NCBI RefSeq assembly: GCF_900636965.1
Contig: NZ_LR134331.1
Location: 2,418,001 to 2,482,000 of the forward strand
DNA: 64,000 nucleotides
Reading direction: 5' to 3'
Origin: Lacticaseibacillus rhamnosus
GTDB lineage: Bacteria; Bacillota; Bacilli; Lactobacillales; Lactobacillaceae
Part shown: positions 8,229 through 42,026 of the stretch, one piece after another
How positions within the stretch are numbered: position 1 is the stretch's first letter
Layout: the number at the start of each line of letters is the position of its first letter
Made by a program: the position numbers and the translations under genes
Notes under the pieces: generated by a model
Told to the model about the DNA's origin: nothing
Database searches by the model: none
What the model saw: the letters and a program-made list of their open reading frames with translations, nothing else

Positions 8229-8950
8229 TTTGCGACCTCCTTCAAAACGGATCCAACCGGCACCTCCGCGATTGAAGCATATTTTAGTCCCATCGTTCTT
8301 ATGATATTGATCTTTCGCTTTTTGAAGGCTTTGGAATTGGATTTCTTGATGAGGATTTGCCCCTTATCTTCGAATTTTCCAGGGATCAAGACGCTGCTAT
8401 AAGGAATATTGATATCCATGTGTACGCCAACATTAACTCCTTGAATGGGTACCTGAAGTCGATACTTGGTGATGCTTTCTTCACTTGACGGTAAAACGTC
8501 AACTTTTTTTACGACACAATCATACTTTTTAGACCCATCAATGTTGGCCACTTTTACCTGCATACCTTGCAAAATTAAGTGGCGGTCTAGCTCGGTTACG
8601 GAGGCATCGATATACTTCGCGTCACTTGCAACAGCATATGAGCCATCTTCCTTAACGATAAATGTGCCAGAAATTGGCGTAGTATACCCTGTTTGGTAAA
8701 TCACTTGTCCTTTTGTAATATGCTCCCCATTTTTGATCTTCACATTTTCGGGGCTTGTCGAGTCCAAGACCTTGATTTCCTCTGCTCTAACAACGCCGCT
8801 TAACACCAAATCCTTTTGCCTGACAACTTTATATTCTTTTGCTGTCGCTTTTGCCGTTGTTGTTGTCGCCGATTGATAACTAGTTAACAAAGCATACAAG
8901 CCGACAAAACTTAACAAAATTGATCCCAAAATAACCAGTCTTTTTCTCAT
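8225..8950 (-). CDS. Membrane-fusion/adaptor protein of the ABC exporter (YknX/MacA-like)
   Basis: 241 residues with a single N-terminal TM anchor (about 5-23) followed by extracellular beta-rich segments including a lipoyl-like half (KNGEHITKGQVIYQTG). It is shorter than typical MacA/YknX and lacks a long coiled-coil hairpin. First gene of the operon; a terminator-like hairpin lies only about 30 nt before its start, suggesting control of readthrough. Confidence 0.78.
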   Translation of the reverse strand: MRKRLVILGSILLSFVGLYALLTSYQSATTTTAKATAKEYKVVRQKDLVLSGVVRAEEIKVLDSTSPENVKIKNGEHITKGQVIYQTGYTTPISGTFIVKEDGSYAVASDAKYIDASVTELDRHLILQGMQVKVANIDGSKKYDCVVKKVDVLPSSEESITKYRLQVPIQGVNVGVHMDINIPYSSVLIPGKFEDKGQILIKKSNSKAFKKRKINIIRTMGLKYASIAEVPVGSVLKEVAK

Positions 8951-9027: not shown

Positions 9028-9471
9028 GTTTAGACTTCAATTAAGGCAATAGGATTTTGTAGATTCAACCAAGATTTCTTATGGGCCAAAAATCAATCCA
9101 CCAAAAGCGTTATTCGTTAAACCTGTTGACTTCCTCCCACATCAAGATAGCAGATGAACTCGCTCATTTGCCCAATAAAAAATTAACGTCGCAAATCGCT
9201 TAAAAACCGTTAGTTATTTTTTAAGATTGACGATTATTTGCATTTTCACGACGTTTACATTCGACCGGGTTGCACTGATTAAGCTTAGGCACATAATGCT
9301 CATAAATGTTTTCAACAATGTCGTACCTACATTCATATATCTGAGCTCATTGCTTGCCTTTTTATGTACGTTTATCACCCCTTCACCAAGACAATTTGCA
9401 ACCGGATAGTTAGCAACTCTTAGTTGTTTGCAAGCTCTGCCAACCCGATACATCCCCCTTGCTCGAAACAC

Positions 9472-10370: not shown

Positions 10371-10376
10371 AGGCTA

Positions 10377-27917: not shown

Positions 27918-29495
27918 TCACTCATGAACCAGGCGCGCGTAATAACCGTCTTGGGCTAACAACGTTGCATGGTCACCTTGTTCCACAATTTTGCCATGAT
28001 CCATCACCACAATTTGTTCGGTTTTAGCCGCAATAGTTAAGCGATGGGCAACAAAAATAATGGTCCGATCCGTCATTGCCAGCAAGCGATCGACAATTTT
28101 TCGCTCTGTAATGGTATCCAGACTGCTGGTCGATTCGTCAAAAATCAGTACTTTTGCCGGTGACAACAAGGCCCGTGCAATCGCCAGCCGCTGCTTCTGA
28201 CCGCCTGATAAAATGCTGCCGCTTTCTGACAATTTGGTCTGCCACTGCTGCGGTAAGTTTGCGATGTCTGCGGCAATTTCCGCAGCCAAACACGCCTGCG
28301 TCAAATCTTGTTCCGAAACATCCGAACGGCTACCTAACGTCAAATTCTCCAACACCGTGCCCGAAAAAATAAACGGATCCTGAGGTACATATTCAATATA
28401 TTGCCGTAATGTTGTCAGGTTAATGTCTTTGACCGGAATGCCATTAAACGTAATGGTTCCTTTATCGGCATCAACCGGGTAAAAGCCAACTAATAATTTT
28501 GCTAATGTCGACTTACCAGAACCGCTCATACCGACAATGGTATATTTAGCATTTTCCGGCACTTCAAGGTTGATGTTTTTTAACACATCTTGGCCAAAAC
28601 CATATTTAAACGAGACATCCCGAACGCGTATCGGACCTTCGATTAAATGCCGCTCCGTCAAGTGCCGCTGTTCTTTGAATTCCGATTCGACCAGATAAAC
28701 TTCATTCAGGCGATTGTTAGCAACCCGCGCCATTTGTAACTTTGGCTGTAGGTTGATGATGCTTTCAAGCGGATTCGTAAAGTATGACAGCAGCGCATTA
28801 AAGGTCAGCATCTGCCCCAAACTCATTCGATTGGCAATCACCAAACTTGCCCCAATCCACAACACCACAACGTTCAACGCCAGCTTCAACAGGCCTTTAA
28901 TCGCTTGCTGTAACTGATCTGCCTTGGTGTAACTAAACGACCTCTTCAAATAGGTTAGAAATTCCCGATCAACCCGTTCATAGCTAACTCGTTCGCCGGT
29001 CAAGGACTTGATGGTTTCAATGCCATTCAAATCTTCAATAATCGATGAACTCAAGATTGCGTTACTTTCCATCGTCTCTTGGTTCAACCGATCAAACGGC
29101 CGCTGAAATGCAAAAACAATCACCAAATAACACGGCACGGCAATCAATGACACTAAAAACAAAGTCCCATTTTGGATCCCTAGAACAATGCCTAATATTA
29201 GGACAATCCAGACATCCAAAAACAACGTCATAATCGTATTCGCCAGCGCGTCAATAATTTTATTGGCATCCGCAAACCGCGACACAATCTCTCCGGTCCG
29301 CCGAGTTGAAAAAAACGACATCGGCAATTCATATAAGTGGCGCACATACCCTAAAATGACATCAATCGCAAGCCGCTGCCCCAACACCGCCATCAAAAAA
29401 TTCTGGCCATAAGTCAACACAGCTTGCAGCAAGTAAGCCACCAAAAGGCCACTAGCAATCATCCCCATCGTCGTCCGCATGGCATTCGGTATATA
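27918..29495 (-). pseudogene. Bacteriocin ABC exporter, C-terminal part (IS-interrupted)
   Basis: This fragment holds most of the TM domain and the complete nucleotide-binding domain: Walker A VGMSGSGKST, signature LSGGQKQR and Walker B VLIFDEST. It is the downstream part of a MesD/ComA-type exporter. The first in-frame ATG reads MRTTMGM and, in the uninterrupted gene, would be codon 3 after IPNA; it has no RBS here. Removing the IS and one copy of TATATA restores a continuous frame (DTYIPNAMRTT), so the insertion alone broke the gene. Export of the locus' peptides is probably lost. Confidence 0.9.
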
Positions 29496-31070
29496 GTGGA
29501 TGGTGAAAAACTATAAAAGTACTTTCATGATAGGCTTTGACAATAGTTAAGTGTATAATAAGTGTAAGCCTTATTTGCCCGAAATGCCTATGCTTTGGGA
29601 TTTACCCTTGCACTTATCGCTGACCTATCGGAGGAATTGATCATGGTTTATCGTCAAAAAGCAACGCAACTATCACTTGAATCCTTTGGAAGCGCTCTGG
29701 GAACACCGCTCAGCCCGGACAACGAGTGGGTTCAATATGCAGAATTGATCCCATGGGCCAAACTTGAAGAGGCATACCAATTACAGTTCCCTTCAAAAAC
29801 CGGCCGAGCAGCGAAGCCATTTCGATTGCTTTATGGCGCAACGTTGATCCAGTTGAAGAAAGGCCTGACCGACCGCCAAGTTGTCGACGATATCCGTGAT
29901 ACACCAGCCTATCAGTACTTCATCGGATTACCCGAATATCGCGCTAAGAAGCCATTTGAACACACAACGTTGGTGCACTTTCGCCAACGGCTTTCAGCCA
30001 TCTCAGATTTGATCCGCAACATTACTAATGACTTCACGCGCGAGCGGTTGGAGGCCGATCTACCTGAGGGGACACATGTTTTGATTAGTGATGCGACTGC
30101 CGTTCCGGTCAAGATCAAGTATCCCCAAGATACAACGCTGCTTAACCAGAGTCGTTTGAATCTCGAACAAATGGTCACAGATCTGGCCCACGGGTTAGGT
30201 GTGGAAATTCCGCGGACGTACAGACGTGAAGCAAAAGGTAAGTGGACCGCTTTTTCGAGGAAACCGCGGCGTCAAAACAAGGAACGCCGCAAACAGCTTC
30301 AGGCTCAGCTACAATACATCCGAAGAGATCTGCGATATGTGGCGGAACTGCTTGCGCAAGGCGGTCAGCTCACTGATTGGCAAGCACAGCGTCTGGAAGT
30401 GATTAAACAAGTCTATGAGCAGCAGCTCTTCATGTTTGAGAACCACACTCACCATGTCGAGAATCGCATCGTTAGCCTTCAACAGCCGTATATCCGGCCA
30501 ATCGTGCGAGGTAAGGCAAAGCAGTCCGTTGAGTTTGGCGCCAAGATTGACTGTTCCATGTTGGATGGCGTGATTGATGTAGAGCGTTTCGACTTCAATT
30601 CATTTAACGAAAGCACTGATCTTGAAGTAACGCTTGACCATGCTTTTGACCTAGTGGGTGAATATCCGGATGAGGTGCTGGTCGATACTCTCTATCGCAC
30701 GCGAGATAACATCAATCTGTGTAAGAAGCTAGGCATTAAACTTAATGGGCCAAAGCTGGGTCGAAAGCCCAAACATGTGGATCCGAAACAGCGCAAAGCC
30801 GATGTCAGTGCGGAAAACCGTCGCGGTGCCATTGAGCGCAAGTTTGCCTTCTTGAAAGGTTCACTTGGGCTTGACTTAGTGAACACCAGAACGGCTGAGT
30901 CCTTGGTGGTAACGGTGGATAGCGCGATTGCATTGGCAAATATCGACCTCCTCCTTAAGCTTTTTTCTGTACCAATTTCTATTGTGGTCGAACAGGGTGG
31001 CCTGCATTATCAAATCAACTATAAAGTGACTGAAATTCGGCCAGAAACCGCAGCCTAAATCACCAGGCAC
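29496..31070 (+). mobile_element. IS5/IS1182-type insertion sequence, 1575 bp
   Basis: The ends are related inverted repeats: the left starts GTGGATGGTGA and the right, read inward, starts GTGCCTGGTGA. The element is flanked by a 6-bp direct duplication TATATA (29490-29495 and 31071-31076). The target is itself palindromic, as often seen for IS1182-type elements. It contains one transposase gene and lies inside the bacteriocin exporter gene in the opposite orientation. The transposase frame is intact, so the element may still be mobile. Confidence 0.93.
29643..31058 (+). CDS. DDE transposase, IS5/IS1182 type
   Basis: 471 residues from the ATG at 29643, preceded by GGAGGAATTGATC. An N-terminal DUF772-like region (AAKPFRLLYGATLIQLKKGL, then DTPAYQYFIGL) precedes the DDE core: ISDATAVPVKIKYPQD with the first Asp, EVLVDTLYRTRDN with the second Asp, and the C-terminal block NRRGAIERKFAFLKGSLGLDL with the Glu. 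Full length with no frameshift. Family naming between IS5 and IS1182 needs a search against ISfinder. Confidence 0.92.
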   Translation: MVYRQKATQLSLESFGSALGTPLSPDNEWVQYAELIPWAKLEEAYQLQFPSKTGRAAKPFRLLYGATLIQLKKGLTDRQVVDDIRDTPAYQYFIGLPEYRAKKPFEHTTLVHFRQRLSAISDLIRNITNDFTRERLEADLPEGTHVLISDATAVPVKIKYPQDTTLLNQSRLNLEQMVTDLAHGLGVEIPRTYRREAKGKWTAFSRKPRRQNKERRKQLQAQLQYIRRDLRYVAELLAQGGQLTDWQAQRLEVIKQVYEQQLFMFENHTHHVENRIVSLQQPYIRPIVRGKAKQSVEFGAKIDCSMLDGVIDVERFDFNSFNESTDLEVTLDHAFDLVGEYPDEVLVDTLYRTRDNINLCKKLGIKLNGPKLGRKPKHVDPKQRKADVSAENRRGAIERKFAFLKGSLGLDLVNTRTAESLVVTVDSAIALANIDLLLKLFSVPISIVVEQGGLHYQINYKVTEIRPETAA

Positions 31071-31691
31071 TATATACGTATCAATAATAGACTGCAAAAA
31101 ATACGACCCAACGATACTAATGACCGTAATCAATACCGCGGCCAGAATAATGTTCGCGATAATACCTTTTTGCTTAGCCAGCATGGGTACAAACGCAAAC
31201 AAACTGCCTTTGTCCTCCTTACGCGGCTGATACTGCGGCGCCGGTGCAATAAAGATGGCCACACCCGACCATTCTTTTTCAAACACCTCTCGCGAAAGCC
31301 AGGTCATGCGCACTGACGGGTCAGGATCGCCAATCAGAATACTCGTGCGCGTTGCTTTAAAAACAACATAGTAATGAAGCAATTCACCGCGCTTCAGCAC
31401 ATGGGCAATAAACGGATAAGGCACATCCTCAAGATCAAACAACTGCATATCCGCCTGTACCGGTTTTGTCTCAAACGCTAGTGCTTCAGCGGCCCGAACG
31501 ATTCCCAAAGCCGTCGTGCCATCCTGATTTGTCTTCGCTAACTCGCGCAGGTGGGCTAACGAATAGTCCGACCCATTGTATTTAAGCAGCATGTTTAACG
31601 CAGCCACACCACAGTCACGCTCGTCAACTTGTGCGGTGTAGAAGCGTTTGTAGTAGGTGATCTGGCCTAGTTTGGGGGTGTGTTTAAACAT
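31071..31691 (-). pseudogene. Bacteriocin ABC exporter, N-terminal peptidase part (IS-interrupted)
   Basis: Encodes the first about 207 residues of the exporter: the C39 peptidase domain with the catalytic Cys in DERDCGVAAL (about C27), His in LLHYYVVFKA and Asp in GDPDPS, then the first TM segment. Translation continues into the IS for about 64 foreign residues before a stop. The peptidase would normally cut double-glycine leaders during export. The peptidase part could still be made, but without the ATPase it cannot drive transport. Confidence 0.9.
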
Positions 31692-31939: not shown

Positions 31940-32074
31940 CTAGCCAAAGATACTCGTTAGCCAGTTCTTAAACTTGTTAAACGTAAAACCTTCATCTCGG
32001 AGCATTCCGCCAACAAAACTTGAAAGTTCAAGATCTGTCATCATTGGCATTTCCTCATCTTTAAATTTTTTCAT
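31940..32074 (-). CDS. Double-glycine inducing-peptide (pheromone) precursor
   Basis: A 44-codon gene. Leader MKKFKDEEMPMMTDLELSSFVGG ends in the classic hydrophobic-spaced VGG (residues 15-23 LELSSFVGG). The mature product would be 21 residues, MLRDEGFTFNKFKNWLTSIFG, cationic and amphipathic, the size of class II autoinducing peptides. GGGAGAAAAAGG precedes the ATG. A LytTR-type direct repeat lies 78 nt upstream, and the kinase/regulator genes start divergently next to it. Its processing depends on the C39 exporter, which is broken here. Confidence 0.82.
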   Translation of the reverse strand: MKKFKDEEMPMMTDLELSSFVGGMLRDEGFTFNKFKNWLTSIFG

Positions 32075-32151
32075 TACCTTTTTCTCCCTTCGTTTTGTCT
32101 TTCGTTCAAAGTGATCGTACCAGATCTTTAAAAATTTTGGTTAGGCAAAAA

Positions 32152-32181
32152 ATAAACGTAGCTTTTTCGCCATTTAACGCA
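32152..32181 (-). promoter_or_regulatory. LytTR response-regulator box 1 (inducing peptide)
   Basis: On the minus strand TGCGTTAAA, 12 nt, TACGTTTAT: two 9-bp direct repeats at a 21-bp period (two helical turns). The distance to the inducing-peptide ATG is 78 nt. This matches the plantaricin-type direct-repeat layout. Confidence 0.8.
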
Positions 32182-32249
32182 GATTTTCGAGCACCTTGGC
32201 AATTTTTAGGAAGTTAACCGCCTACAAACAGAAAGGTAAAGATTATAGC

Positions 32250-33563
32250 ATGATTATTTCTACAGACTTGTATTACTTCTTGTTTCACTTACCGATCTTT
32301 TTGATTGATCTTACTTTCCTTTCGTATATTTACTTTAACGACTTCAAACTCAGGCATATTTTCTTATGGTCACTCGCCGCAGGAACGCTCTCCACATTTC
32401 TTTCATCAGTTGGTGAAATAACATTTGGTATTTTATATGCAACAAATATTTCAAAAAAATATCAGCGTTTTGATATCTTCTGGGTTTTCTTATTTCTAGA
32501 ACTTAACTTAATTGTTATTAACCTTCAATTACTAGTCACTAAAATCGTATTTCTGTTTCTATCTGTCCAATCATCCACTATCTCAAATAGCATCAAGCTG
32601 ATCATTGATGTCATATTTGCAATTGTCATGTCTCAGGTGTTAATGAAAAAGAAGCTATTCATTAATTCTATCCGTGAACAAATCCAAAAAAAAATAGCTA
32701 TTTGGAGACCGGCAGTTATTTATTTAATAGTGACCTGCGTTTCGCTTTACTGTTTAGAGTTTGCTTTTTCATTTCTTGAAATCACCGATATCCTAACACT
32801 TCTTATTTTGTTAACCTTAATTCTTTTTATGGTTATCAATGTATTCTCGTTATTCTTCATCGTAAAATCATATCAGTATTCTTTGGAGTTGTTAGTTATC
32901 AAGCACGCGGAAGCTTCAAAACGCGCGTACTATTCAGCCCTTGAGCAGCAACGTATCAATACCAGTAGGATTCTTCATGATTACAAAAACTTACTTGCAA
33001 CGTTACAGCTTAGCTTGCAGAAATCATCACCACACCACTCATCAGACGTTCGAACGATTGTCACTCAAGCACAGGATGCACTTCAAAAAGCTGAGATAGG
33101 CAAAGATGCCTTAGCTTTGATCGAAAGTGATCCGCTCAGGAGTTTGCTGTATCTCAAATGGTCCGAATCTGCAAACCGTGGCATAACAATGTACATGCAT
33201 ACCAAAGATACAGTCCGATCCCTGGAAAGTGATGTCGGATTTGCAATTATCAGAATCTTGGGCATTTTAATTGATAATGCTATTGACGAAACTGCCACAC
33301 TTAAACTTAAGTCTTTCAGAGTTCTCTTATTACCCGCCCGCGATCACTTAGAAATTGTTGTTGCAAACCCGATTCCTGACGGCTTTGATTTAACTCGACT
33401 TAACCAAAAAGGATTTACAACAAAGGGCTCAGGCCACGGGCAAGGCATGTCCATTATCAATGACCTAATCCAACAAAATCCCAATATCAGCATGCGTAAA
33501 GCAATTATCAACAATGATCAATTAAAGATCACGCTATTTATAGGAGGAAAAGCCCATGCCTAA
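32250..33563 (+). CDS. Bacteriocin-induction sensor histidine kinase (HPK10, ComD/PlnB-like)
   Basis: About 437 residues from the ATG at 32250 (M-I-I-S); the upstream 18 codons of the open frame lack an RBS. Six TM segments in the first 205 residues form the peptide-sensing module. The phospho-acceptor is H243 in RILHDYKNLLATLQ, the N-box lies in GILIDNAIDE and the G-box is GSGHGQGMSIINDL. It overlaps the regulator gene by 8 nt. It should sense the 21-residue peptide encoded just upstream on the other strand. Confidence 0.92.
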   Translation: MIISTDLYYFLFHLPIFLIDLTFLSYIYFNDFKLRHIFLWSLAAGTLSTFLSSVGEITFGILYATNISKKYQRFDIFWVFLFLELNLIVINLQLLVTKIVFLFLSVQSSTISNSIKLIIDVIFAIVMSQVLMKKKLFINSIREQIQKKIAIWRPAVIYLIVTCVSLYCLEFAFSFLEITDILTLLILLTLILFMVINVFSLFFIVKSYQYSLELLVIKHAEASKRAYYSALEQQRINTSRILHDYKNLLATLQLSLQKSSPHHSSDVRTIVTQAQDALQKAEIGKDALALIESDPLRSLLYLKWSESANRGITMYMHTKDTVRSLESDVGFAIIRILGILIDNAIDETATLKLKSFRVLLLPARDHLEIVVANPIPDGFDLTRLNQKGFTTKGSGHGQGMSIINDLIQQNPNISMRKAIINNDQLKITLFIGGKAHA

Positions 33564-34332
33564 AAACAAAACAATCCTAAACATTTATATTCTCGAAGAC
33601 AACCCTGACTATCTAACCTTTATCCAAGAAACTGTGCAGCAGTACCTTCTGATTGAAGAACTACCCGCCAAGATCCGGCTGGCAACAACGTCAGCAACTG
33701 AACTGCTTGCAGCTGTCGATTGGTCAGCCATCAATGATAGTATCTTCCTCCTTGATATCGAGCTGGGAGATTCAGCGACAAGCGGCGTAGATGTAGCCAC
33801 AGCCATTCGGAGAAAGTCATATTATGTCGATATCCTCTTCATCACCAGCCATGTAGATGAAGCTTTAAGGATTTTAGAGCACAAAATCGCACCGTTGGAC
33901 ATGATCAACAAGAACTCACCTTCGAAGACAGAAAAGAAAATTCGAAATAACATTCTTTATGCAATAAAACGTTTAAAGGCGCGTCAGGTCGCATCTCCCA
34001 GATTGTTTAGCTACAGCATCAACTCCAGCATTTTTTCACTTGAAATGGATGAGCTCATCTATATTCAAACTGCTCCCGGCGTCTCAGGGACACTGGAGCT
34101 TCATGCAGAAAATGAAATTACAACCTTTCCTGGCAACCTTAAGGAACTGGCAACCAAATATACCAACTTGTGTCGATGCCATAAGAGTATCCTGATTAAT
34201 CCCGCACATGTTATGCGTCTGGACATCACAAACCGATTCGTTTATATGGACAATCAAGATAAACTTGAGGTCAGTATTCGGAGAATGGGCGAGTTGCGCA
34301 ACATCTTAACAGGCACACGAGCTTTATCTTAA
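33556..34332 (+). CDS. Response regulator, LytTR DNA-binding domain
   Basis: 258 residues. Receiver domain about 8-125 with acidic pocket ED (14-15), phospho-acceptor D67 in FLLDIELG and the Thr/Lys region. The LytTR domain covers about 150-255 (DELIYIQTAPG, then CRCHKSILINPAHV). LytTR regulators bind two 9-bp direct repeats separated by about 12 bp; exactly such repeats occur at 32152, 37805, 39238 and 41997. RBS GGAGG. Cotranscribed with the kinase. Confidence 0.94.
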   Translation: MPKNKTILNIYILEDNPDYLTFIQETVQQYLLIEELPAKIRLATTSATELLAAVDWSAINDSIFLLDIELGDSATSGVDVATAIRRKSYYVDILFITSHVDEALRILEHKIAPLDMINKNSPSKTEKKIRNNILYAIKRLKARQVASPRLFSYSINSSIFSLEMDELIYIQTAPGVSGTLELHAENEITTFPGNLKELATKYTNLCRCHKSILINPAHVMRLDITNRFVYMDNQDKLEVSIRRMGELRNILTGTRALS

Positions 34333-34394
34333 GAAGAGTGTGACTGGGCAATCATCCTAGATTTCTGTTAATCAACACAGCTGAACGCACAAAT

Positions 34395-34422
34395 AACGCA
34401 TCCTCAATATCAAGGATGCGTT
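34395..34422. terminator. Bidirectional intrinsic terminator
   Basis: AACGCATCCT pairs with AGGATGCGTT around an 8-nt loop, followed by TTATTTGG; it separates the regulator gene from the convergent small membrane genes. Confidence 0.85.
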
Positions 34423-34451
34423 ATTTGGTTGGTTTATACAGGTTGGAAATA

Positions 34452-34727
34452 CTATTCCTCCTGAAAGGTTTTATGCCAATCAATTAAAATTACTGCACTA
34501 ACGATGAGCAGTATAAGGACTGCTGAAGGCCAATCAGTGTGATTTGTGACAAAGAAAAGCCCTAAAAGAGCCAACCATATGACAGTTCTGATACCAAATA
34601 CTAAACTTCCATCATCTAAAATCGCGGAAATCATTCTTTTAACAAATTTGCGATCTTTGAAAACAAACAAAGTTGCCAAAAAGATAAGCCATGTTGCGTA
34701 ATAAAGATTCACAGTGCTACCCTTCAT
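34452..34727 (-). CDS. Small membrane protein of the bacteriocin locus
   Basis: 91 residues from the ATG at 34727, which lies 5 nt after the stop of the preceding small gene. Three hydrophobic segments (about 7-25, 43-61 and 66-84). No known motif. Last of three consecutive small membrane genes; by position an immunity or accessory protein. Confidence 0.5.
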   Translation of the reverse strand: MKGSTVNLYYATWLIFLATLFVFKDRKFVKRMISAILDDGSLVFGIRTVIWLALLGLFFVTNHTDWPSAVLILLIVSAVILIDWHKTFQEE

Positions 34728-34732
34728 CAGCT

Positions 34733-34903
34733 CTACTTCAACCAACGTGCTATCGACTGACCCGTTTGATAACCAGCGTCATAAATCCCCTTTAAAATTC
34801 CCGGTGAAAAGTACCAAAACGCCATTATTAAAACCCCAATGGCAACAAGCAACGACACTTTCTGTTGGAATGATAATCTTGCAAATTGATCGATTACGCT
34901 CAC
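34733..34903 (-). CDS. Small membrane protein, GTG start (short)
   Basis: 56 residues from a GTG at 34903: a short amphipathic N-terminus, one hydrophobic segment (VSLLVAIGVLIMAFWYF) and a polar C-terminus ending QTGQSIARWLK. No strong RBS was found and the frame is open upstream to the previous gene's stop, so the start is uncertain. Composition and tight packing between two similar genes support coding. Confidence 0.42.
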   Translation of the reverse strand: MSVIDQFARLSFQQKVSLLVAIGVLIMAFWYFSPGILKGIYDAGYQTGQSIARWLK

Positions 34904-34978
34904 CTCGTTTACGAGCAGACTTATTTTTACTTCTTTCAGTAATCCATTAGTAACCTGTTCTTTATGTTCTCCCGCCTT

Positions 34979-35161
34979 CTAAGAAAAAGGCAATATACTA
35001 ATGGCCAACTGCGTCAATTGGGAATATTTCTCCCAAAAAGATGTTCGCGGATGAAGCCGATGTCTTAAGAGGTCTATCATCTGCCAGCCGATCGCAGTTA
35101 CAAATACGAATGTGAAGAAAAATGCCAGAATCAAAAGTATAGAATATATCACAACTGTCAT
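34979..35161 (-). CDS. Small membrane protein of the bacteriocin locus
   Basis: 60 residues from the ATG at 35161, chosen because AAGGAG lies 8 nt upstream. One long hydrophobic segment (about 3-28) and a basic, amphipathic C-terminal half. A likely promoter (TTGTAT, 18 nt, TATAGT) lies about 75 nt upstream. First of three short same-strand genes; a membrane-bound immunity peptide is possible. Confidence 0.5.
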   Translation of the reverse strand: MTVVIYSILLILAFFFTFVFVTAIGWQMIDLLRHRLHPRTSFWEKYSQLTQLAISILPFS

Positions 35162-35403
35162 AAGCAAAGCTCCTTGAGTCTTCCTTTAAATTTACATTGA
35201 AGCGGCAAATTAGCGAGCACAGGTTCGGAGATACTATACGTTCTGCTAAGGTCATCATACAAGTAAGAAGTCACAAAAATGAAGCCATTTTACCTATTTA
35301 ATATTGTTTCCGAAAGGCCTTTTACTGTCAGGAAGAAAAAACAATCGTGGGTTTTGAAAGCTCATCTTATTTAGCATCAGTTCTGCCATACTCACGCGCA
35401 AGA

Positions 35404-35443
35404 TCTCCTGATTTGTATTTTTGTTTCAATACAAATCAGGAGA
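35404..35443. terminator. Perfect 15-bp terminator hairpin
   Basis: TCTCCTGATTTGTAT (35404-35418) and its exact complement (35429-35443) with T-rich flanks; able to act on both strands. Confidence 0.85.
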
Positions 35444-35648
35444 CTTTTGCGTTTTTTGGCTGATCGAACATAGTGTAACAAGATTCTGACACTAAAAACA
35501 GTTCCCAAATATCAGTAGTGTCACCTAAAATCTCATTTGCCGTCATGAACAGCCGATATTGCATTATTATAGCCTGGCAGATGGCTGTGTCACAATAGTT
35601 GCTGTCTCCTTGAGATGACAGGCTTCCCACTGACAATAACACTGCCAC
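35436..35648 (-). CDS. Doubtful small ORF
   Basis: A 70-codon frame from a GTG. The second half reads like protein (EILGDTTDIWELFLVSE), and its stop lies inside the terminator at 35404-35443, as a natural gene end would. There is no good RBS and no recognised family. It may be a remnant. Confidence 0.25.
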   Translation of the reverse strand: MAVLLSVGSLSSQGDSNYCDTAICQAIIMQYRLFMTANEILGDTTDIWELFLVSESCYTMFDQPKNAKVS

Positions 35649-35684
35649 CTTACCAATACTTTGAAATCAAACAAAGAAAATTTG

Positions 35685-35930
35685 TTATTTAGAGCGTTTA
35701 CGGTCTTTAACCTTTGAAGATGTGACACTTAATTTAGAGAAAAGAATCAAAACAATGAAGATTGAAAGCATCTCTATGAACGCCCGGACGATGAAAAAAT
35801 CAAAACCCAAGCAATCGACAATCAGCTTGTTTAAGACATCACTGAGCGAAAACCCGCCGAAACAGATACAAACGATAATCCAGAAAGAAGCTTCATTAAG
35901 CTATGTGCGCATAGTTTTAAGAATCGTCAT
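35685..35930 (-). pseudogene. Small membrane protein gene with an in-frame amber stop
   Basis: From an ATG at 35930 (GAAGG upstream) the frame reads MTILKTMRT, then TAG at 35901-35903, then continues for about 71 residues with two hydrophobic segments (ASFWIIVCICFGGF; RAFIEMLSIFIVLILF) and a basic tail to a TAA at 35685. One C-to-T change from CAG would explain the TAG. The product would have been an 81-residue membrane protein like the others in this locus. Confidence 0.5.
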
Positions 35931-36179
35931 CGTACCTTCGCTTTGCTCATCACTAAATCATTTATCGACCGATCAGTTTTGGCTCTGTCTTTTTAAGTTA
36001 GACCGTTATATTCGAAACTAGTTTGCCTACGTCGCCGTTATAAAATGGACAACCTTTTAGGCATCATCCATTGACAACAGGCCCATACCAACCAGCATCG
36101 CAATCGGAGTTTGATCTGCACCAAATGAATCAGTGAGCCTAACCATAATCAAGCGCACTCACCGTTTTAGGAGTGGCCT

Positions 36180-36479
36180 CTAGTACCCATATCTGATATT
36201 CGCCAGCGAAGAAAGCTGCTCGAATTTGTCAGATTGTTGCTTGGTTAACAAGATATTGTTTTGCAACAGGGCATTAGAGATTTCTAGATTCATGCGGCTT
36301 AAAATAAATGGAACCGCTGCTTGCTTGTAAATTAAGGCCTCTCTATTGTTCCTTAGCACTGTCCGTAAGCGATCACTATGGGAAGAACTGTCATCGAAGT
36401 CGCGAAGCAGTTCATCGATAAGCTGTATCGCTTGTTCAGCCCGTTCATTCCCACCAGAAAACCATTTCAATTTCTTCAT
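36180..36479 (-). CDS. Bacteriocin immunity protein (Enterocin A immunity family)
   Basis: 99 residues, a helical cytoplasmic protein. The C-terminal helix-turn-helix block PFILSRMNLEISNALLQNN, then LTKQQSDKFEQLSSLA, is typical of EntA/PedB-type immunity proteins. GGAG lies 6 nt before the ATG. It lies about 180 nt downstream of a double-glycine bacteriocin gene on the same strand and probably protects against that peptide. Confidence 0.75.
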   Translation of the reverse strand: MKKLKWFSGGNERAEQAIQLIDELLRDFDDSSSHSDRLRTVLRNNREALIYKQAAVPFILSRMNLEISNALLQNNILLTKQQSDKFEQLSSLANIRYGY

Positions 36480-36657
36480 CTTTCACTCCAAAAAAGTTGC
36501 GCTAGTGCACCTTCACTTGTAACACGTTTGGCGCCGTGCATTGCCAGATCTGCCGTAGCAATGACAGAAAGAACATGCTCGCCCACAGATAAAAGGCTTG
36601 TTCTGGGCAGAGATACTTTTACAACGGCGACAACGCTTAAGAATTAACGCACCGTTA

Positions 36658-36816
36658 TTACGATCGTTCCCATCCTTGCTTGACTCCCGCCACCAGCTCA
36701 TCAGCATGGCTCCACGCATCTGTTGCCAGGAATCCAAGAATAGCAGCGACAGGGATTGCGAGCGGTCCGATACCGCCGGAAATCTTACTCAATTCAGCTT
36801 CATTCAACTTAGTCAT
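36658..36816 (-). CDS. Double-glycine class II bacteriocin precursor
   Basis: 52 residues. The leader is MTKLNEAELSKISGG (LxxxELxxISGG pattern). The mature 37-residue peptide has a hydrophobic N-terminal half (IGPLAIPVAAILGFLA) and a polar C-terminal half with a GxxxG (GVKQG), no cysteines. AAGGAGG precedes the ATG. It lies between an immunity gene downstream and a small membrane gene upstream. It could be a one-peptide (IId) or one half of a two-peptide (IIb) bacteriocin. Confidence 0.83.
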   Translation of the reverse strand: MTKLNEAELSKISGGIGPLAIPVAAILGFLATDAWSHADELVAGVKQGWERS

Positions 36817-37056
36817 TAAAATTACCTCCTTGTATTTGTAAGAAACTACTCGCCAGTTGATCCAAAAGTCTTTGTTATGGATATTGTGGCGATAAAATGC
36901 TCATCTACCGCACAACTTTTTGCAAATACAACCATGGAGTCATCAGCGGCATGCCTGGATTAAAGTCACTTGACCTTCACCATCGAAATTCTGCTACTTG
37001 GTTTGTACGGCAGCATTACAGCGTACAGCTTAGGCATTGAACGGAACACTCAAAGT

Positions 37057-37248
37057 TTAAGCGTAGGTAATAAACCAGATGGCATTCAAAATATAAGCAC
37101 GTTTAAAGGCTATCTGATGCTCACTGTCGAGATATTTATCATTCCAAACGCGATAGTGACCATCTTTTTTACAGCACGTATATACCAAAACACCTAATAG
37201 ATATACCAAGATAAACGTAGCTAACATTAAAAGATTTATCTTATTCAT
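37057..37248 (-). CDS. Small membrane protein, probable immunity
   Basis: 63 residues: TM about 4-24, a cytoplasmic basic stretch with a CC pair, and a second hydrophobic end (AYILNAIWFITYA). It starts 37 nt after the bacteriocin gene at 37285-37470 on the same strand, with a weak RBS. Small two-helix proteins directly after class IIb peptide genes are commonly immunity proteins. Confidence 0.55.
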   Translation of the reverse strand: MNKINLLMLATFILVYLLGVLVYTCCKKDGHYRVWNDKYLDSEHQIAFKRAYILNAIWFITYA

Positions 37249-37284
37249 ACGTTTGCCCGTTCGAGTGCCTATTCATCCCGGATA

Positions 37285-37470
37285 CTAATTGCCGTTAAGT
37301 TTGTCAACAATCTCTTTGGCAGGACCAATGGCTGGCGCAAACATGGCGCCTTCAGCCCAAGAACGCGCGGTTGAACCAATGGCCTTCCCGATAAAGGTCC
37401 ACAGATTACCATTATCGCCACCAGAAATACTTGCCAAATCAGCCGTGTTTAAAGTTTTTAAATGATCCAT
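37285..37470 (-). CDS. Double-glycine class IIb-type bacteriocin precursor
   Basis: 61 residues. The leader is MDHLKTLNTADLASISGG; the mature peptide is 43 residues with GxxxG (GKAIG) and GxxxA (GAMFA) helix-contact motifs, a Trp near the start (NLWTFIG) and a lysine-containing tail. This is the pattern of two-peptide bacteriocin components. GGAGGAAG precedes the ATG. It lies about 60 nt downstream of another double-glycine peptide gene and 335 nt downstream of a LytTR box. Confidence 0.85.
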   Translation of the reverse strand: MDHLKTLNTADLASISGGDNGNLWTFIGKAIGSTARSWAEGAMFAPAIGPAKEIVDKLNGN

Positions 37471-37529
37471 GTTCTTCCTCCTTTTTCCTTTATGAGCCTT
37501 TCAATCTATCTATCAGCCTAAATTATCAC

Positions 37530-37715
37530 TTAAGTCGCCACCTTAATTGGATGAACAATCGGCAGTTTATACTTAAATGCCGATTCGTAAGCTGGCGGAT
37601 GGCGTTCGTTTGGTGGATCCACACTGCAATTGGATAAAGGAACATTCCCACCGCTCGTCAATTCAAGCATTTTTCCCGAGATTTCCTTCAAAGCTAGTCC
37701 TGTTCGCATGGTCAT
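37530..37715 (-). CDS. Double-glycine precursor with an atypical mature peptide
   Basis: 61 residues. A leader-like region ALKEISGKMLELTSGG is followed by a 38-residue, proline-rich mature part with one cysteine (PLSNCSVDPPNERHPPAYE, then KLPIVHPIKVAT). It lacks the hydrophobic GxxxG core of normal class II peptides. AAAGGAGG lies 8 nt before the ATG, and the LytTR box at 37805-37834 is 90 nt upstream, so it is probably the first regulated gene of the peptide operon. It may be a pheromone, a new peptide type or a diverged partner of the next peptide. Confidence 0.65.
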   Translation of the reverse strand: MTMRTGLALKEISGKMLELTSGGNVPLSNCSVDPPNERHPPAYESAFKYKLPIVHPIKVAT

Positions 37716-37804
37716 CCCATTTTCCTCCTTTCCCTTTGTTAGAAGGACTTCCCTTCTTCCCCATCAATATAAAGTAGACAGCCAGGTTTGTGGGAATGAA
37801 TTTT

Positions 37805-37834
37805 TTAACGTCGATTTTTGCAAGAAAATCGTCG
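37805..37834 (-). promoter_or_regulatory. LytTR response-regulator box 2 (bacteriocin peptides)
   Basis: On the minus strand CGACGATTT, 12 nt, CGACGTTAA, with a 21-bp period. It lies 90 nt before the ATG of the 37530-37715 peptide gene. Confidence 0.7.
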
Positions 37835-37850
37835 TAAAAAACCTAATTTT

Positions 37851-37880
37851 GACGTTTATCGTTAAAAACCCGGCGATTAT
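37851..37880 (+). promoter_or_regulatory. Possible reverse-facing LytTR box
   Basis: On the plus strand GACGTTTAT, 12 nt, GGCGATTAT, again with a 21-bp period, next to box 2 but oriented the other way. No plus-strand gene follows, so it may be a chance match or a spare site. Confidence 0.35.
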
Positions 37881-37933
37881 TTGATATTGCCGCCTTCTCT
37901 TCAAAACTCAAGCAACTGCAACTGTATTTACTT

Positions 37934-38104
37934 TTACCCATGTCTTTTTCGCCACTGTGAGCATCCAGTCTTAAGCCAACTTAGAAAGGCGATTAGGCTC
38001 GCGGCCAGCATGTGCATCCATTCGCCGGGGAAATGATGACAAACTGCACACATATAACCGACAATAAATGTTAATAAGCAGCGCCAAAATCTTTTTTGAT
38101 TCAC
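37934..38104 (-). CDS. Small membrane protein, coupled (GTG start)
   Basis: 56 residues from a GTG that overlaps the preceding stop codon (GTGA), a clear coupling signal. Hydrophobic segments at about 9-21 and 28-41 with several cysteines (CLLTFIVGYMCAVCHHF). The longer frame to 38197 would overlap the previous gene deeply and is rejected. Probably an immunity or accessory protein of the bacteriocin locus. Confidence 0.6.
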   Translation of the reverse strand: MNQKRFWRCLLTFIVGYMCAVCHHFPGEWMHMLAASLIAFLSWLKTGCSQWRKRHG

Positions 38105-38286
38105 GCGCTCTTCTGCTTTTCCTCCCGCTCGCTTAACAGCATTAACAACGTCATCAAAATCAACATTGGCGTCACAAAACTCCCATGATTGGTCCACCCA
38201 ATTGCCGATGTGACCGTATAAATGGCAAAAATAATGGTAGCGATTATCAACCCATAATCGACTAGTTTAGTCAGTCGCGTAGACAT
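38101..38286 (-). CDS. Small membrane protein of the bacteriocin locus
   Basis: 61 residues from the ATG at 38286, with AAGGAG upstream; the longer frame to 38442 runs into the CPBP gene and is rejected. Two TM segments (about 8-30 and 37-52) and a charged tail (SEREEKQKSA). Lies 49 nt after the CPBP gene and is coupled to the next gene. A role in immunity is inferred from position. Confidence 0.65.
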   Translation of the reverse strand: MSTRLTKLVDYGLIIATIIFAIYTVTSAIGWTNHGSFVTPMLILMTLLMLLSEREEKQKSA

Positions 38287-38335
38287 CGTTTTTCTCCTTA
38301 AACTCGTTCTATCATAATTGATACATACAGCCAGT

Positions 38336-39142
38336 TTACGAATGCGACAATCGTGCCAGAAACTTTTCATTGTTTTGGCCACGGCGAAAAAGTCGCAGTG
38401 CAATCGCCAGGTAAATCCCGGCAATAAGGAATGCGTGAACAATCGTCATCGTTATAGCGTTGGGATCACTAGGCGCTTCTTTCGGATACGGTCCACTAAC
38501 CAAAGTGATAACAAAATCAATCAAAAAGTGGATCAATATTGGCATAAGCAACGATCCGTAACGAATATAAAGTGCTGCAAAAATAGCCCCCATGCCAAAT
38601 GCCTGGATCACTTGGGCAATTGTTATCACAAGCCCTTGAGCAGGCAAATTACTCAGGTGAGCCAATGAAAAAACAAGACTGCTTAACCCTATGCAAAATA
38701 AGAGTTGGTATTTGGCATGGCGATGATGGGCAACATAAAACGCCCGAATCAACCCGCCAAGCATGACGCCACGAAACAAATACTCTTCGGGAACAGCGGC
38801 AATAGTACCAATCACAGCTGCTTGCAAGACGTCAATCGGTGTTCGATTTGTAACCGTGAACCAAGCGATAAGTATAAAGAGCAGTCCCCAAATGATAACT
38901 GGCTTCAATCGTGGTCGACTAAGTGTCACTTTTAAGACGATAACTTGTTTCAGTAACAGCCAATTAAGTGCGATCATCACCAGTAAAATGATGGCTTTAA
39001 ATAAGATATTCCCAGCCCAGAAGTCCAATTTCAGCGTGTAAACTGCTGGAATTAAAAGCAGCTGGCTGATTAGCACAACCAAAAGCAAGATATATAAAAC
39101 GCAAAATCCTGGCGACAATAGCAAATGACGTTTTCTTTCCAT
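38336..39142 (-). CDS. CPBP-family intramembrane protease-like protein (Abi/PlnI-type)
   Basis: 268 residues with about eight TM segments. The three CPBP motifs are complete: EEYLFRG (EExxxR), FSLAHLSN (FxxxH) and HFLIDF. CPBP proteins in bacteriocin loci (for example PlnI, SkkI) give immunity in a way that depends on these residues. A LytTR box lies 96 nt upstream, placing it in the induced regulon. First gene of a unit with two small membrane proteins. Confidence 0.88.
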   Translation of the reverse strand: MERKRHLLLSPGFCVLYILLLVVLISQLLLIPAVYTLKLDFWAGNILFKAIILLVMIALNWLLLKQVIVLKVTLSRPRLKPVIIWGLLFILIAWFTVTNRTPIDVLQAAVIGTIAAVPEEYLFRGVMLGGLIRAFYVAHHRHAKYQLLFCIGLSSLVFSLAHLSNLPAQGLVITIAQVIQAFGMGAIFAALYIRYGSLLMPILIHFLIDFVITLVSGPYPKEAPSDPNAITMTIVHAFLIAGIYLAIALRLFRRGQNNEKFLARLSHS

Positions 39143-39237
39143 TTATCCACCTTCACTCGCACGTTTCAATGCAACGCAGCTTCGATATCGCTACCCACAA
39201 TATACCGAGGCTGCGCATGTTACGGATCATTAACTTT

Positions 39238-39267
39238 TAAACGTCGGGTTTTCGCCGATAATCGTTG
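39238..39267 (-). promoter_or_regulatory. LytTR response-regulator box 3 (CPBP operon)
   Basis: On the minus strand CAACGATTA, 12 nt, CGACGTTTA; 96 nt before the CPBP start codon. The spacer contains GGCGAAAA as in boxes 1 and 4. Confidence 0.75.
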
Positions 39268-39392
39268 TATTTTGAAACTTGACAACGCGTTAATCGTCCC
39301 CATTTCCGAAAAGGTTTGCCAATGGAGGCGCACTTGCTGACTATTTACTGACTGCCCCACAGTTGCACGATCCTGAAAATGCCGTAAGCAAA

Positions 39393-39442
39393 ATCGCCTC
39401 ATCCAATACCAACGCGCCAACGTTAGTCTTGAATGAGGCGAT
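39393..39442 (-). terminator. Terminator after the Rrf2 gene
   Basis: ATCGCCTCAT pairs with ATGAGGCGAT; on the minus strand it is followed by TTTTGC, 20 nt past the stop codon. Confidence 0.75.
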
Positions 39443-39462
39443 GAAAAGTTAGATTTCGATTT

Positions 39463-39903
39463 TTACGCTTCTGCGGCTTCAGCCAAATCAGCAATGCTCG
39501 TCTGCTTTAGCACTTGCACCATAGCATCTTCGGCTCGGTTTAGAACGTTGGTGCTTGCTGTTAACCAACTCGTGACGCGCTCGCCGTTGACAAACGCGGC
39601 CGGATCGATTTCCTGATGAAGCTTAAATAACGGCGCCGTCCCTTCAATTGCCGTTAAGATCTCATAAACTGTAATCGTTTGTGGCGTTTTGGCTAATCGC
39701 AAACCGCCATTGAGACCGGTTTTCGACGTTAAAATACCACTTTTTTTAAGTGTGGACGAAATTTTTTTAATGCTAGGAACCGGAATGTTTAGCATTTCGG
39801 AAATCTTTTGAATCGATAAATAGTCTTCATGTTGTGCTTGGGACTTTGCGTTGACGTAGGCCGTGATTTCAAGTGCTTGCGAAAATGCGACTGAAAAAGC
39901 CAT
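39463..39903 (-). CDS. Rrf2-family transcriptional repressor
   Basis: 146 residues with the Rrf2 winged helix: SIQKISEMLNIPVPSIKKI, then ILTSKTGLNGGLRLAK. No cysteine trio for an iron-sulphur cluster is present, as in YwnA-type Rrf2 proteins that respond to stress molecules. GGGAGG precedes the ATG. A palindrome overlaps its promoter, and a near copy lies before the MFS gene just upstream, so it likely represses both. Confidence 0.9.
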   Translation of the reverse strand: MAFSVAFSQALEITAYVNAKSQAQHEDYLSIQKISEMLNIPVPSIKKISSTLKKSGILTSKTGLNGGLRLAKTPQTITVYEILTAIEGTAPLFKLHQEIDPAAFVNGERVTSWLTASTNVLNRAEDAMVQVLKQTSIADLAEAAEA

Positions 39904-39930
39904 CGAATATACCTCCCATTAAACGATTGT

Positions 39931-39946
39931 GTATATTCTATTATAC
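39931..39946. promoter_or_regulatory. Rrf2 operator, copy 1
   Basis: GTATATTCTATTATAC, an inverted repeat (GTATA/TATAC) over the TATAAT of the rrf2-like gene. It shares GTATATTC and TTATAC with the copy at 41415. Confidence 0.65.
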
Positions 39947-39957
39947 CAATGATACCG

Positions 39958-41385
39958 TTACTTGGCGGCTTTTTCTGCCGGAATAATGAGCGTGACGACA
40001 AGTATCAGGCCAACAATGGTCATGCCGACGCCAATCAACATTGCCTGTCCGAATACATCCGCAATCTTAGTTAAGCTGCTAGTTGACGCCGCAAAGATTG
40101 CCAGTCCTAAAGCGCCGCCAAATTGTCGGGCGGTGTTGTAGACGCCTGATGCAGCTCCCGAAATTTCCGGCCGAATTCTAGCCAAACCTGAAGTAGCGAG
40201 TGTGGCAAATGCCAGCGCGAATCCTACCGCAAATCCGAGTGTCCCAAGTAACAAAAACCAGTAATTGGCAAACCGTGATGCCACTGCCAGTTCAGCCAAT
40301 GAAAGTAGCACCGTGACAAATCCGAAGATCATGACCTTTGAATTACGCCACCGATCAACGAAGGTCCGGGCCTTGACTGCCACAATGAAGAGTAAGATGG
40401 CCATTGGCACCATGCCTAATGCAGTCATAAATGGCGTTAATCCTAAGACGCCTTGCATAAACTGAGGTGTGTAGAACCAAAAGCCGATTGCAGCGGCACT
40501 AAACAACAGAGAACTGACATAAGAAGCCATCCGTTCCCTATCCGTAAAGATTTCCAGTGGCATTGTCGGGTGGGCAACGCGACCTTGACTAGCAATGAAT
40601 GCAACCCAAAGAACTGCTGAAATCAGCAACGTGGGGATTGGCCATGGACTGCCATCTAACCCATATGAGATTGAAGTCATCGCTAATACTGACAAGATCG
40701 TACCAATCCAGTCAATCTTTCCGGTTTGGCGTTTTGCACTAGGTAAATATCTTGCCGCAATACCAACCATGATTAATGCGATCGGACCATTCATGTAGAA
40801 ACCGACCCGCCATGACGCAAACGTTGCAAAGAAGCCGCCAATGACTAAACCAACCGCTGCACCGGCTCCAATGACGGAAGCATAGTAGCCGATTGCCCGC
40901 TGTCGTGCTTTTCCTTGAAAGGTGTCTGTTAACAAAGCCAAACAGTTCGGTGCAAGAATGGCCGCGCCCACGCCTTGAACAGCGCGAAAGCTAATCATGA
41001 CAAGCGCATTGGTAGCTGCCCCGACTGCCAGACTGCCAACTCCGAAAATAGCTAAACTCGCAATGAATAATGGTTTGCGTCCGTAAATATCGCCTAATTT
41101 ACCGCCTACTAGCATCAGCCCAGCATAAGTTAGCGCATAGGCCACCTGCACCCAAGACAACGCGCCAGCATTCAAATGCAATTGTGCCGCCATTTTAACG
41201 GTACCCGTGTAAACAATCGATGTGTCAAGCACACCTAGAAAAGCCCCAATCAGTGCCAGCCCTAAAATAATGATTTGAGTCGCTGACATGCGCTGCGATT
41301 GGGTGATTGCCGCATCTGTTTCCTCAATGACGGTGTCGTCAGCCAGGCCATCATTGATTAATTCCTTGTCTTCTTCTTTGCTCAT
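39958..41385 (-). CDS. MFS multidrug transporter, DHA2 (EmrB/QacA) family
   Basis: 475 residues with about 14 TM segments. Motif A is GGKLGDIYGRKP and motif C-like GAGAAVGLVIGG occurs in the fifth helix. The start has AAGGGG upstream. The promoter is TTGCCA, 17 nt, TATACT with an 8-bp palindrome across it. The Rrf2 gene follows after 54 bp. Predicted proton-driven export of a lipophilic or cationic compound, induced when Rrf2 leaves the operator. Confidence 0.92.
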   Translation of the reverse strand: MSKEEDKELINDGLADDTVIEETDAAITQSQRMSATQIIILGLALIGAFLGVLDTSIVYTGTVKMAAQLHLNAGALSWVQVAYALTYAGLMLVGGKLGDIYGRKPLFIASLAIFGVGSLAVGAATNALVMISFRAVQGVGAAILAPNCLALLTDTFQGKARQRAIGYYASVIGAGAAVGLVIGGFFATFASWRVGFYMNGPIALIMVGIAARYLPSAKRQTGKIDWIGTILSVLAMTSISYGLDGSPWPIPTLLISAVLWVAFIASQGRVAHPTMPLEIFTDRERMASYVSSLLFSAAAIGFWFYTPQFMQGVLGLTPFMTALGMVPMAILLFIVAVKARTFVDRWRNSKVMIFGFVTVLLSLAELAVASRFANYWFLLLGTLGFAVGFALAFATLATSGLARIRPEISGAASGVYNTARQFGGALGLAIFAASTSSLTKIADVFGQAMLIGVGMTIVGLILVVTLIIPAEKAAK

Positions 41386-41411
41386 ATGAGATGCCCCTTT
41401 CTATGGTTCAC

Positions 41412-41434
41412 TTAGTATATTCCGTTTATACTAA
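41412..41434 (-). promoter_or_regulatory. Promoter with Rrf2 operator, copy 2
   Basis: The perfect inverted repeat TTAGTATA/TATACTAA lies between and over the -35/-10 elements (minus-strand TTGCCA, 17 nt, TATACT) of the MFS gene. Confidence 0.7.
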
Positions 41435-41462
41435 TATGGCAAATCTTTTTTAAGCAAAAAAA

Positions 41463-41494
41463 CCACGTGTTCCTTAATTCTATGGAAACACGCG
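41463..41494 (-). terminator. Intrinsic terminator
   Basis: On the minus strand CCGCGTGTTTCC and GGAACACGTGG form a stem followed by T7, after the immunity-like gene at 41558-41890. Confidence 0.8.
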
Positions 41495-41557
41495 GCTACA
41501 AGCGAATTCTTTTCGGGCCGGTTACTGGAATCAGACCATGGCTTGGGCAACAACTGT

Positions 41558-41890
41558 CTAAATAATAAAGTGCGGCCCGCCTACCTGACTCAATTCGCCA
41601 TGAATGTCATTTTCCATAAAGTCTTTTACCGCCTGCCACCACTGATTGGCCTCCGCTGAAAGTTTCATTCCTTGCAAGCCGATTAATCGCGTAAACCGTG
41701 CGTATAGTCGCGACAAGGCGTAATCTGCGGCTCGATTCTTGAGCACATTAGGCCGCTTTAAAATATCTAAGGCCTCATCTACAACTTCCTGTGCTTCTGT
41801 CTCCATCAGGCCACCACTAGCCGCTTGTTTCAGACTCAGGTTTAATCCGGTCAAAATAAACAGAATCTGATTTCGTTGCACCATATTCAT
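41558..41890 (-). CDS. Bacteriocin immunity-like protein under LytTR control
   Basis: 110 residues, helical, no TM. The helix block YALSRLYARFTRLIGLQGMKL resembles EntA-type immunity proteins. TGGAGG lies 7 nt before the ATG. A LytTR box of near-consensus sequence lies 107 nt upstream, so it should be induced together with the bacteriocins even though it is 4 kb away from the peptide genes. Family call is tentative; regulon membership is well supported. Confidence 0.65.
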   Translation of the reverse strand: MNMVQRNQILFILTGLNLSLKQAASGGLMETEAQEVVDEALDILKRPNVLKNRAADYALSRLYARFTRLIGLQGMKLSAEANQWWQAVKDFMENDIHGELSQVGGPHFII

Positions 41891-41996
41891 GAGTGATCCT
41901 CCATGTCTGGTCGATAAGTGTTTGCATTAAGATAGCGTTTTCTTGAATTGCTAACTGCAATATACCAAATTTATCAAGCTTCAGGTCAAACTTTCG

Positions 41997-42026
41997 ATAA
42001 ACGTAGCCTTTTCGCCGATTAACGTT
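41997..42026 (-). promoter_or_regulatory. LytTR response-regulator box 4 (immunity gene)
   Basis: On the minus strand AACGTTAAT, 12 nt, TACGTTTAT; 107 nt before the ATG at 41890. The spacer CGGCGAAAAGGC is almost the same as in box 1. Confidence 0.82.

Follow-up and report, generated by a model that had tools for sequence, protein, structure and literature searches.

The repeats that precede the pln genes have a 12-bp spacer. In the plantaricin (PlnABCD) regulon of Lactiplantibacillus plantarum C11, five operons are gathered in one locus and tandem TACGTTAAT repeats lie just upstream of the promoter; dimers bind cooperatively and the right repeat is better conserved than the left (PMC2714321). 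We analyzed a stretch of 64,000 nucleotides of Lacticaseibacillus rhamnosus (contig NZ_LR134331.1, positions 2,418,001 to 2,482,000; hereafter the window, numbered from its first letter), in which four direct-repeat boxes lie around the genes of an inducing peptide, a histidine kinase and a response regulator with a LytTR domain. The genome holding the window (G000) is one contig of 2,988,387 bases, and sites outside the window are given by genome position. The locus shares with plantaricin the combination of peptide, kinase and response regulator, tandem repeats before the promoter with a better-conserved right repeat, and a set of targets that includes CPBP proteases and an exporter of GG-peptides. 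It differs from that single five-operon locus in its 12 candidate promoters, seven of them outside the window, in the presence of second, inverted boxes, and in a peptide gene divergent from those of the kinase and regulator.

Boxes of the form TACGTTAAT-N12-TACGTTAAT also occur in G103, G199 and G218, three genomes that belong to a different genus of this family, in loci that we take to be sakacin loci, with a -10 element at exactly 33 nt in 8/8 and with kinase or regulator relatives (23-33%) beside some of the sites; these sakacin-type sites have the same box/-10 geometry as ours and differ in spacer sequence. When 201 genomes were scanned with TACGTTAAT, there were 12 matches against 21 in the reversed control; the pattern alone proves nothing there, and only the 8 clustered matches were used, on account of the -10 and the neighbouring genes. 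BlpR-box targets of S. mutans include cipB and nlmAB (PMC5295010), so that targets at several loci are already known in streptococci. With streptococcal ComE/BlpR our system has in common a LytTR regulator, direct-repeat boxes and targets at more than one locus; it is unlike them in box sequence, and the competence link was not seen here. Within the genus, LSEI_2386 of Lacticaseibacillus paracasei is of the same peptide family and locus, and the coordinates in genome G017 match its published location (PMC5570283, PMC9565723). A literature search in which subscription journals were little covered found no description of the box or the regulon for this genus. Because box geometry, peptide, kinase, LytTR regulator and C39 exporter gene are all present, the system can be assigned to the plantaricin/sakacin type of LytTR bacteriocin regulon, a known kind; judged from its sequence it appears to work like these regulons, whereas its scatter and its inverted boxes differ.

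The boxes are very probably operators of the local LytTR regulator (33556-34332), which would be activated by the peptide and control a regulon scattered over at least 12 promoters. An initial annotation of the window had placed four boxes with a 21-bp half-site period on the minus strand; all are present, with positions within 1 nt, and when aligned they read RCGWTNAN-(spacer)-RCGTTWA with half-sites 21 bp apart. The sharing of GGCGAAAA by three of the four spacers was also borne out, the exception being the box at 37805. From core end to start codon we measured 78, 89, 95 and 107 nt, so that the first and last of the distances originally given were exact and the middle two, 90 and 96, were not. 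With a weight matrix trained on 24 sites, all outside the window, the five best matches of the window are the four boxes and one inverted box (37852), and all four boxes (20.6-43.3) score above 17.4, the maximum reached in 16 simulated sequences of 64 kb. The matrix scores exclude a chance origin of the four boxes, the independence of the matrix being incomplete because its training sites were found with patterns taken from the window boxes.

A strict pattern built from three window boxes, allowing up to 3 mismatches and with the reversed pattern as control, matched G000 9 times against 0 in the control; a looser pattern matched 19 times against 9, and the scan across five genomes gave 37 matches against 2. 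A -10 element, TAnnnT, starts exactly 33 nt past the core at all four window boxes, and since it was absent from the search patterns this evidence is independent of them. Among the G000 sites it begins at 33 nt in ten, and at 32 and 34 in the eleventh (2974954). Without selection, TAnnnT at 32-34 nt accompanies 8/9 strict and 12/19 looser G000 matches, 32/37 of the five-genome matches and 20/22 of another match set, the rough chance rate from base composition being about 6%; in an offset table 28 of 32 sites have it at 33 nt, in a list mostly pre-chosen for having a -10. The -35 region of 11 G000 sites matches TTGACA at three of six positions at most for -10s at 32-34 nt, and the presence of a -10 together with a poor -35 gives the picture of an activator-dependent promoter. 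Eight G000 matches (1755076, 1670932, 82819, 249922, 681799, 1303669, 1868083 and 2272377) were dropped for having no -10 at 32-34 nt, as were L060 (G005), L063 (G006) and L035 (G021) for having none at the fixed place; G000 119924 (matrix 13.0, TACCGT at 33 nt) was also dropped and may be a degenerate site.

In the mechanism that we propose, the half-sites ACGTTAA and ACGTTTA would hold a regulator dimer just upstream of the promoter, on the same face of the helix given their 21-bp distance. Because the -10 is there without a usable -35, the promoter would fire only when the regulator is bound, and the regulator, once activated by the 21-residue peptide, would switch on all 12 promoters; at four of them a second dimer on the inverted box would aid a weak primary box.

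The boxes had been thought to define a regulon of 10 kb. This does not hold, as equal or better matches exist elsewhere in the genome; many equal matches at random places had been named as what would speak against the regulon, and the matches, though equal, are not random (-10 in 8/9, reversed control 0). Seven distal sites outside the window have the same promoter (20833, 68854, 75029, 126808, 2378856, 2925661 and 2974954), with the -10 at 33 nt in six and at 32 and 34 in 2974954, and we infer that the regulon comprises these seven and five promoters in the window (9183, 32153, 37805, 39238, 41998), at least 12 altogether. Distal targets are mostly genes for small membrane, immunity-like or bacteriocin-like proteins, and 4/7 distal sites precede genes whose homologues in other species are boxed as well: the two genes of one boxed operon in G017 have as homologues the proteins encoded after 68854 (75%) and 75029 (35%), boxed relatives (49-50%) of the second gene after 2974954 occur in G017 and G028, and the region behind 126808 encodes, with no evident start, a relative (50% and 46%) of boxed genes in G028 and G006. 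The other three (20833, 2378856, 2925661) are without such cross-species support. At 20833 a frame without a start, downstream of the box, resembles by eye the end of a CPBP protease. The protein family of 68854 was considered as a dedicated bacteriocin accessory and this was not supported, the family being widespread.

The regulator matches the solved structures of ComE (4cbv, E 1.5e-13) and AgrA by sequence; its receiver domain, at 26.5 bits, is under the cut-off of 30.2. Co-occurrence was examined by searching 30 genomes of the genus with the strict box, which is found in six, in five of them together with the -10 (G000, G005, G006, G017, G028). These five are exactly the genomes with a regulator orthologue of at least 50% identity; the sixth, G021, has one match and no -10, and in the five genomes with distant regulator relatives (28-44%) no strict box was found. 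The initial annotation's reading of a regulon under a local LytTR response regulator is supported. Another LytTR protein, at 621680, was rejected as common binder, being in 2/5 box-bearing genomes and absent from three. In L072 (G006) and L074 (G028 15336-16094) another box has close to it a second copy of the regulator (50-51%) that contains one internal stop.

A further element is an inverted second box, which lies exactly 47 bp upstream (start to start) at four of the 12 G000 promoters and 58 bp upstream in related species. An opposite-strand upstream box scoring at least 10 is present in 5/32 sites, three in G000 at -47 and those of G006 and G028 at -58, and closer inspection added two pairs, G000 9183 (-47) and G017 2429278/2429335 (-58). 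No inverted box appeared in 1920 simulated upstream regions, drawn from a first-order simulation and not from real intergenic DNA, and the composite signature of forward and inverted box is absent from 8 simulated 64-kb sequences; the composite scan covered the retrieved regions of the genomes. In G000, G006, G017 and G028 the pair is present at the promoter of the class IIb bacteriocin operon, and no inverted box was found at the corresponding promoter of G005. The inverted box at 37852 outscores two of the four forward boxes. The two distances are 11 bp apart, about one helical turn. The inverted box probably assists a weak primary box, to which it would add a second dimer. Tentatively, and with some doubt, we go further and suggest two promoter designs: strong promoters with one direct-repeat box, and others, including the class IIb bacteriocin operon, with four half-sites, where two regulator dimers on one DNA face would occupy a forward box and an inverted box 47 or 58 bp upstream.

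In the signal locus the exporter gene is cut by an insertion sequence with terminal inverted repeats at 29489-29506 and 31060-31077, and the severed N-terminal piece (30876-31691) is the sole Peptidase_C39 match of the whole genome. The G017 exporter is one 730-aa frame, while that of G005 is also split, with a transposase frame behind the first piece. The kinase orthologue of G017 (L069 6495-7774) is split into two pieces that overlap and lie in different frames, as after a frameshift. From the damage to the exporter (G000, G005) and the kinase (G017) it would follow that receiver and boxes outlive the whole signalling circuit in several species. As the only C39 exporter gene found is interrupted, the strain may hear the signal and not send it, that is, it may be a listener in which receiver and boxes are kept and the sender is broken.

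Several observations weigh against a single scattered regulon of the local regulator. An AgrA-like LytTR paralogue (G000 2635678-2636379) has its closest orthologues, at least 81% identical, in the five box-bearing genomes, so that co-occurrence alone does not decide the binder, and the boxes might belong to this protein while the local regulator binds elsewhere. We consider this highly improbable: in all five genomes boxes precede the gene of the inducing peptide, next to those of the local kinase and regulator, which favours the local regulator; a box with a -10 is absent from nine further genomes whose AgrA-like relatives are at 40-52%; the 12 kb around the AgrA-like gene hold no box scoring at least 14; and the TACGTTAAT sites of another genus adjoin genes for a kinase and a regulator of this type. 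As to extent, no evident intact gene stands behind the distal sites 20833 and 126808, the 68854 protein family occurs in 10/30 genomes (3 copies in G000) with a box only at the known one of 10 loci examined, the strong box G028 C59 is without a -10 at the fixed place, and box 5, which is 233 nt ahead of its gene, has a score of 3.6 by itself; it was found by a closer look at 9230, whose score of 18.0 just exceeds the simulated best of 17.4. The two sites without an intact gene, together with insertion sequences near several distal sites, could mean that the regulon consists of the four local promoters only, the distal boxes being relics or unused. There is little chance of this, as the -10 spacing persists in each of the seven distal sites and four of them precede genes whose homologues stand behind boxes in other species, and the genome scan led us to reject it in favour of the scattered regulon.

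The inverted boxes could instead be halves of divergent promoters and not helper sites, a serious rival reading because the plus-strand box 2429335 of G017 is followed by a -10 of its own at 33 nt and then by a 74-aa gene. It is a credible explanation, if on balance a doubtful one: no TAnnnT was found at 32-34 nt from the inverted box in the four G000 cases (9230 has CATAAT at 34), and yet their 47-bp distance is fixed. Finally, an insertion sequence inside the only genomic Peptidase_C39 match raises the possibility that in this strain the locus as a whole is dead. This seems rather unlikely, given that the kinase and regulator frames are open, that peptide released by a neighbour may still be effective, and that another export route is possible.

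The gene at 41558 is separated from the locus in G000 by Rrf2-like and MFS-like genes, and its box had been used to assign it to the regulon. The assignment proved sound: its orthologue in G017 (71%, at 2431873-2432199) lies inside the bacteriocin locus, where box 2432739 precedes it and the CPBP gene's box follows closely, and membership is well supported. In G028 the gene was not found, and close relatives of the Rrf2-like and MFS-like genes adjoin the locus there; the 3.3-kb locus of the G006 copy (52%) has no box scoring at least 8. Searches with the protein gave no match in Pfam (0.01; including EntA_Immun, PF08951), NCBIfam (0.1) or PHROGs (0.1), and no PDB sequence match at E 1. Its structure model has four helices (pLDDT 83.9), for which fold comparison gives PedB as best (Z 11.9, 2.2 A over 87), followed among others by the unrelated TTYH1 (10.4), EntA-im (10.2), 2zrr (9.9) and PisI (8.6), with a best Foldseek E of 0.21. 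These scores are within the range of chance matches between helical bundles, so that immunity-like, by resemblance of the model to PedB and EntA-im, is a good guess and not proof.

The features of the window are collected in Table 1. The box 5 operon lies about 23 kb from the signal locus, and no MacB-like genes were found in the retrieved parts of G017 and G005. Genes for a class C sortase and a SpaH/EbpB-type major pilin adjoin box 5 (9546-11930), and the same pair occurs in G017 near box 2399187, which lies downstream of the pilus sortase. A 338-aa transposase-like frame recurs within about 2 kb of several boxes (G000 73370-74386 and 2923772-2924788; G017 2418377-2419393 and 56554-57570). 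Site 17931 of G017 precedes a GG-leader bacteriocin-like peptide. LSEI_2386 is reported to induce LSEI_2163 (PMC9565723). As a box target in G017, LSEI_2163 was set aside, no box scoring at least 12 having been found near the LSEI_2163-like 39-aa peptide (L075 2207158-2207277). The gene of a 106-aa protein 4.6 kb from this peptide does have a box.

Table 1. Features of the regulon in the window (bits, profile score; matrix, weight-matrix score).
Feature	Position	Strand	Remarks
Box 1, predicted promoter of inducing-peptide gene	core 32153..32180	-	-10 TACGAT at 32114-32119; matrix 28.0
Box 2 (weaker), predicted promoter of peptide operon	core 37805..37832	-	-10 TATATT at 37766-37771; matrix 20.6
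Box 3, predicted promoter of CPBP operon	core 39238..39265	-	-10 TATATT at 39199-39204; matrix 43.3
Box 4, predicted promoter of immunity-like gene	core 41998..42025	-	-10 TATATT at 41959-41964; matrix 40.6
Box 5 (weak), putative promoter of MacB-like ABC operon	9183..9210	-	-10 TATCTT at 9144-9149, exactly 33 nt; matrix 3.6 alone
Inverted box, 47 bp upstream of box 2	37852..37879	+	matrix 29.5; no own -10 at fixed distance
Inverted box, 47 bp upstream of box 5	9230..9257	+	matrix 18.0
Histidine kinase, C-terminal GHKL ATPase domain	32250..33563	+	GHKL 25.3 bits, cut-off 22
Response regulator with LytTR domain, likely box-binding protein	33556..34332	+	LytTR 55.8 bits, cut-off 22.6
Inducing-peptide precursor, 44 aa, GG leader, 21-residue mature peptide	31940..32074	-	NF046113, LSEI_2386 family, 66.8 bits, cut-off 40
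N-terminal exporter piece (C39 peptidase), severed by insertion sequence	30876..31691	-	
Insertion sequence within exporter gene, DDE transposase on + strand	29489..31077	.	18-nt terminal inverted repeats
Rest of exporter (membrane and ATPase domains)	27918..29480	-	
Accessory transport protein, 459 aa	26526..27905	-	66% to G017; presumably HlyD-like
First gene behind box 2, 61-aa GG-type peptide	37530..37715	-	
61-aa bacteriocin-like peptide, class IIb alpha-like	37285..37470	-	below curated cut-offs of named families
52-aa bacteriocin-like peptide	36658..36816	-	TIGR03949 26.1 bits, cut-off 21.5
99-aa immunity protein, EntA_Immun family	36180..36479	-	30.1 bits, cut-off 22.1
CPBP (Rce1-like) membrane protease behind box 3	38336..39142	-	66.7 bits
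Small membrane protein, second gene of box 3 operon	38104..38289	-	no Pfam family
Immunity-like protein (by model), 110 aa, behind box 4, four-helix bundle	41558..41890	-	
First gene behind box 5, adaptor-like membrane protein	8225..8950	-	named by eye; no NCBIfam match
ABC ATPase, LolD/MacB-like, behind box 5	7560..8228	-	
MacB-like permease, behind box 5	6380..7549	-	

The 12 promoters listed here can be tested as targets of one peptide signal, and among their genes are orphans that could not be linked to it by the gene map; the rule of a box followed at 33 nt by a -10 can be used to find more targets in other lactobacilli. If the paired inverted box works as proposed, one regulator could grade its targets; two promoter designs, if they are real, would mean a sharper response to the peptide and bacteriocin genes that fire later than the signal genes. 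Moreover, a strain that may listen without sending makes the persistence of peptide receivers beyond their senders testable in a food bacterium.

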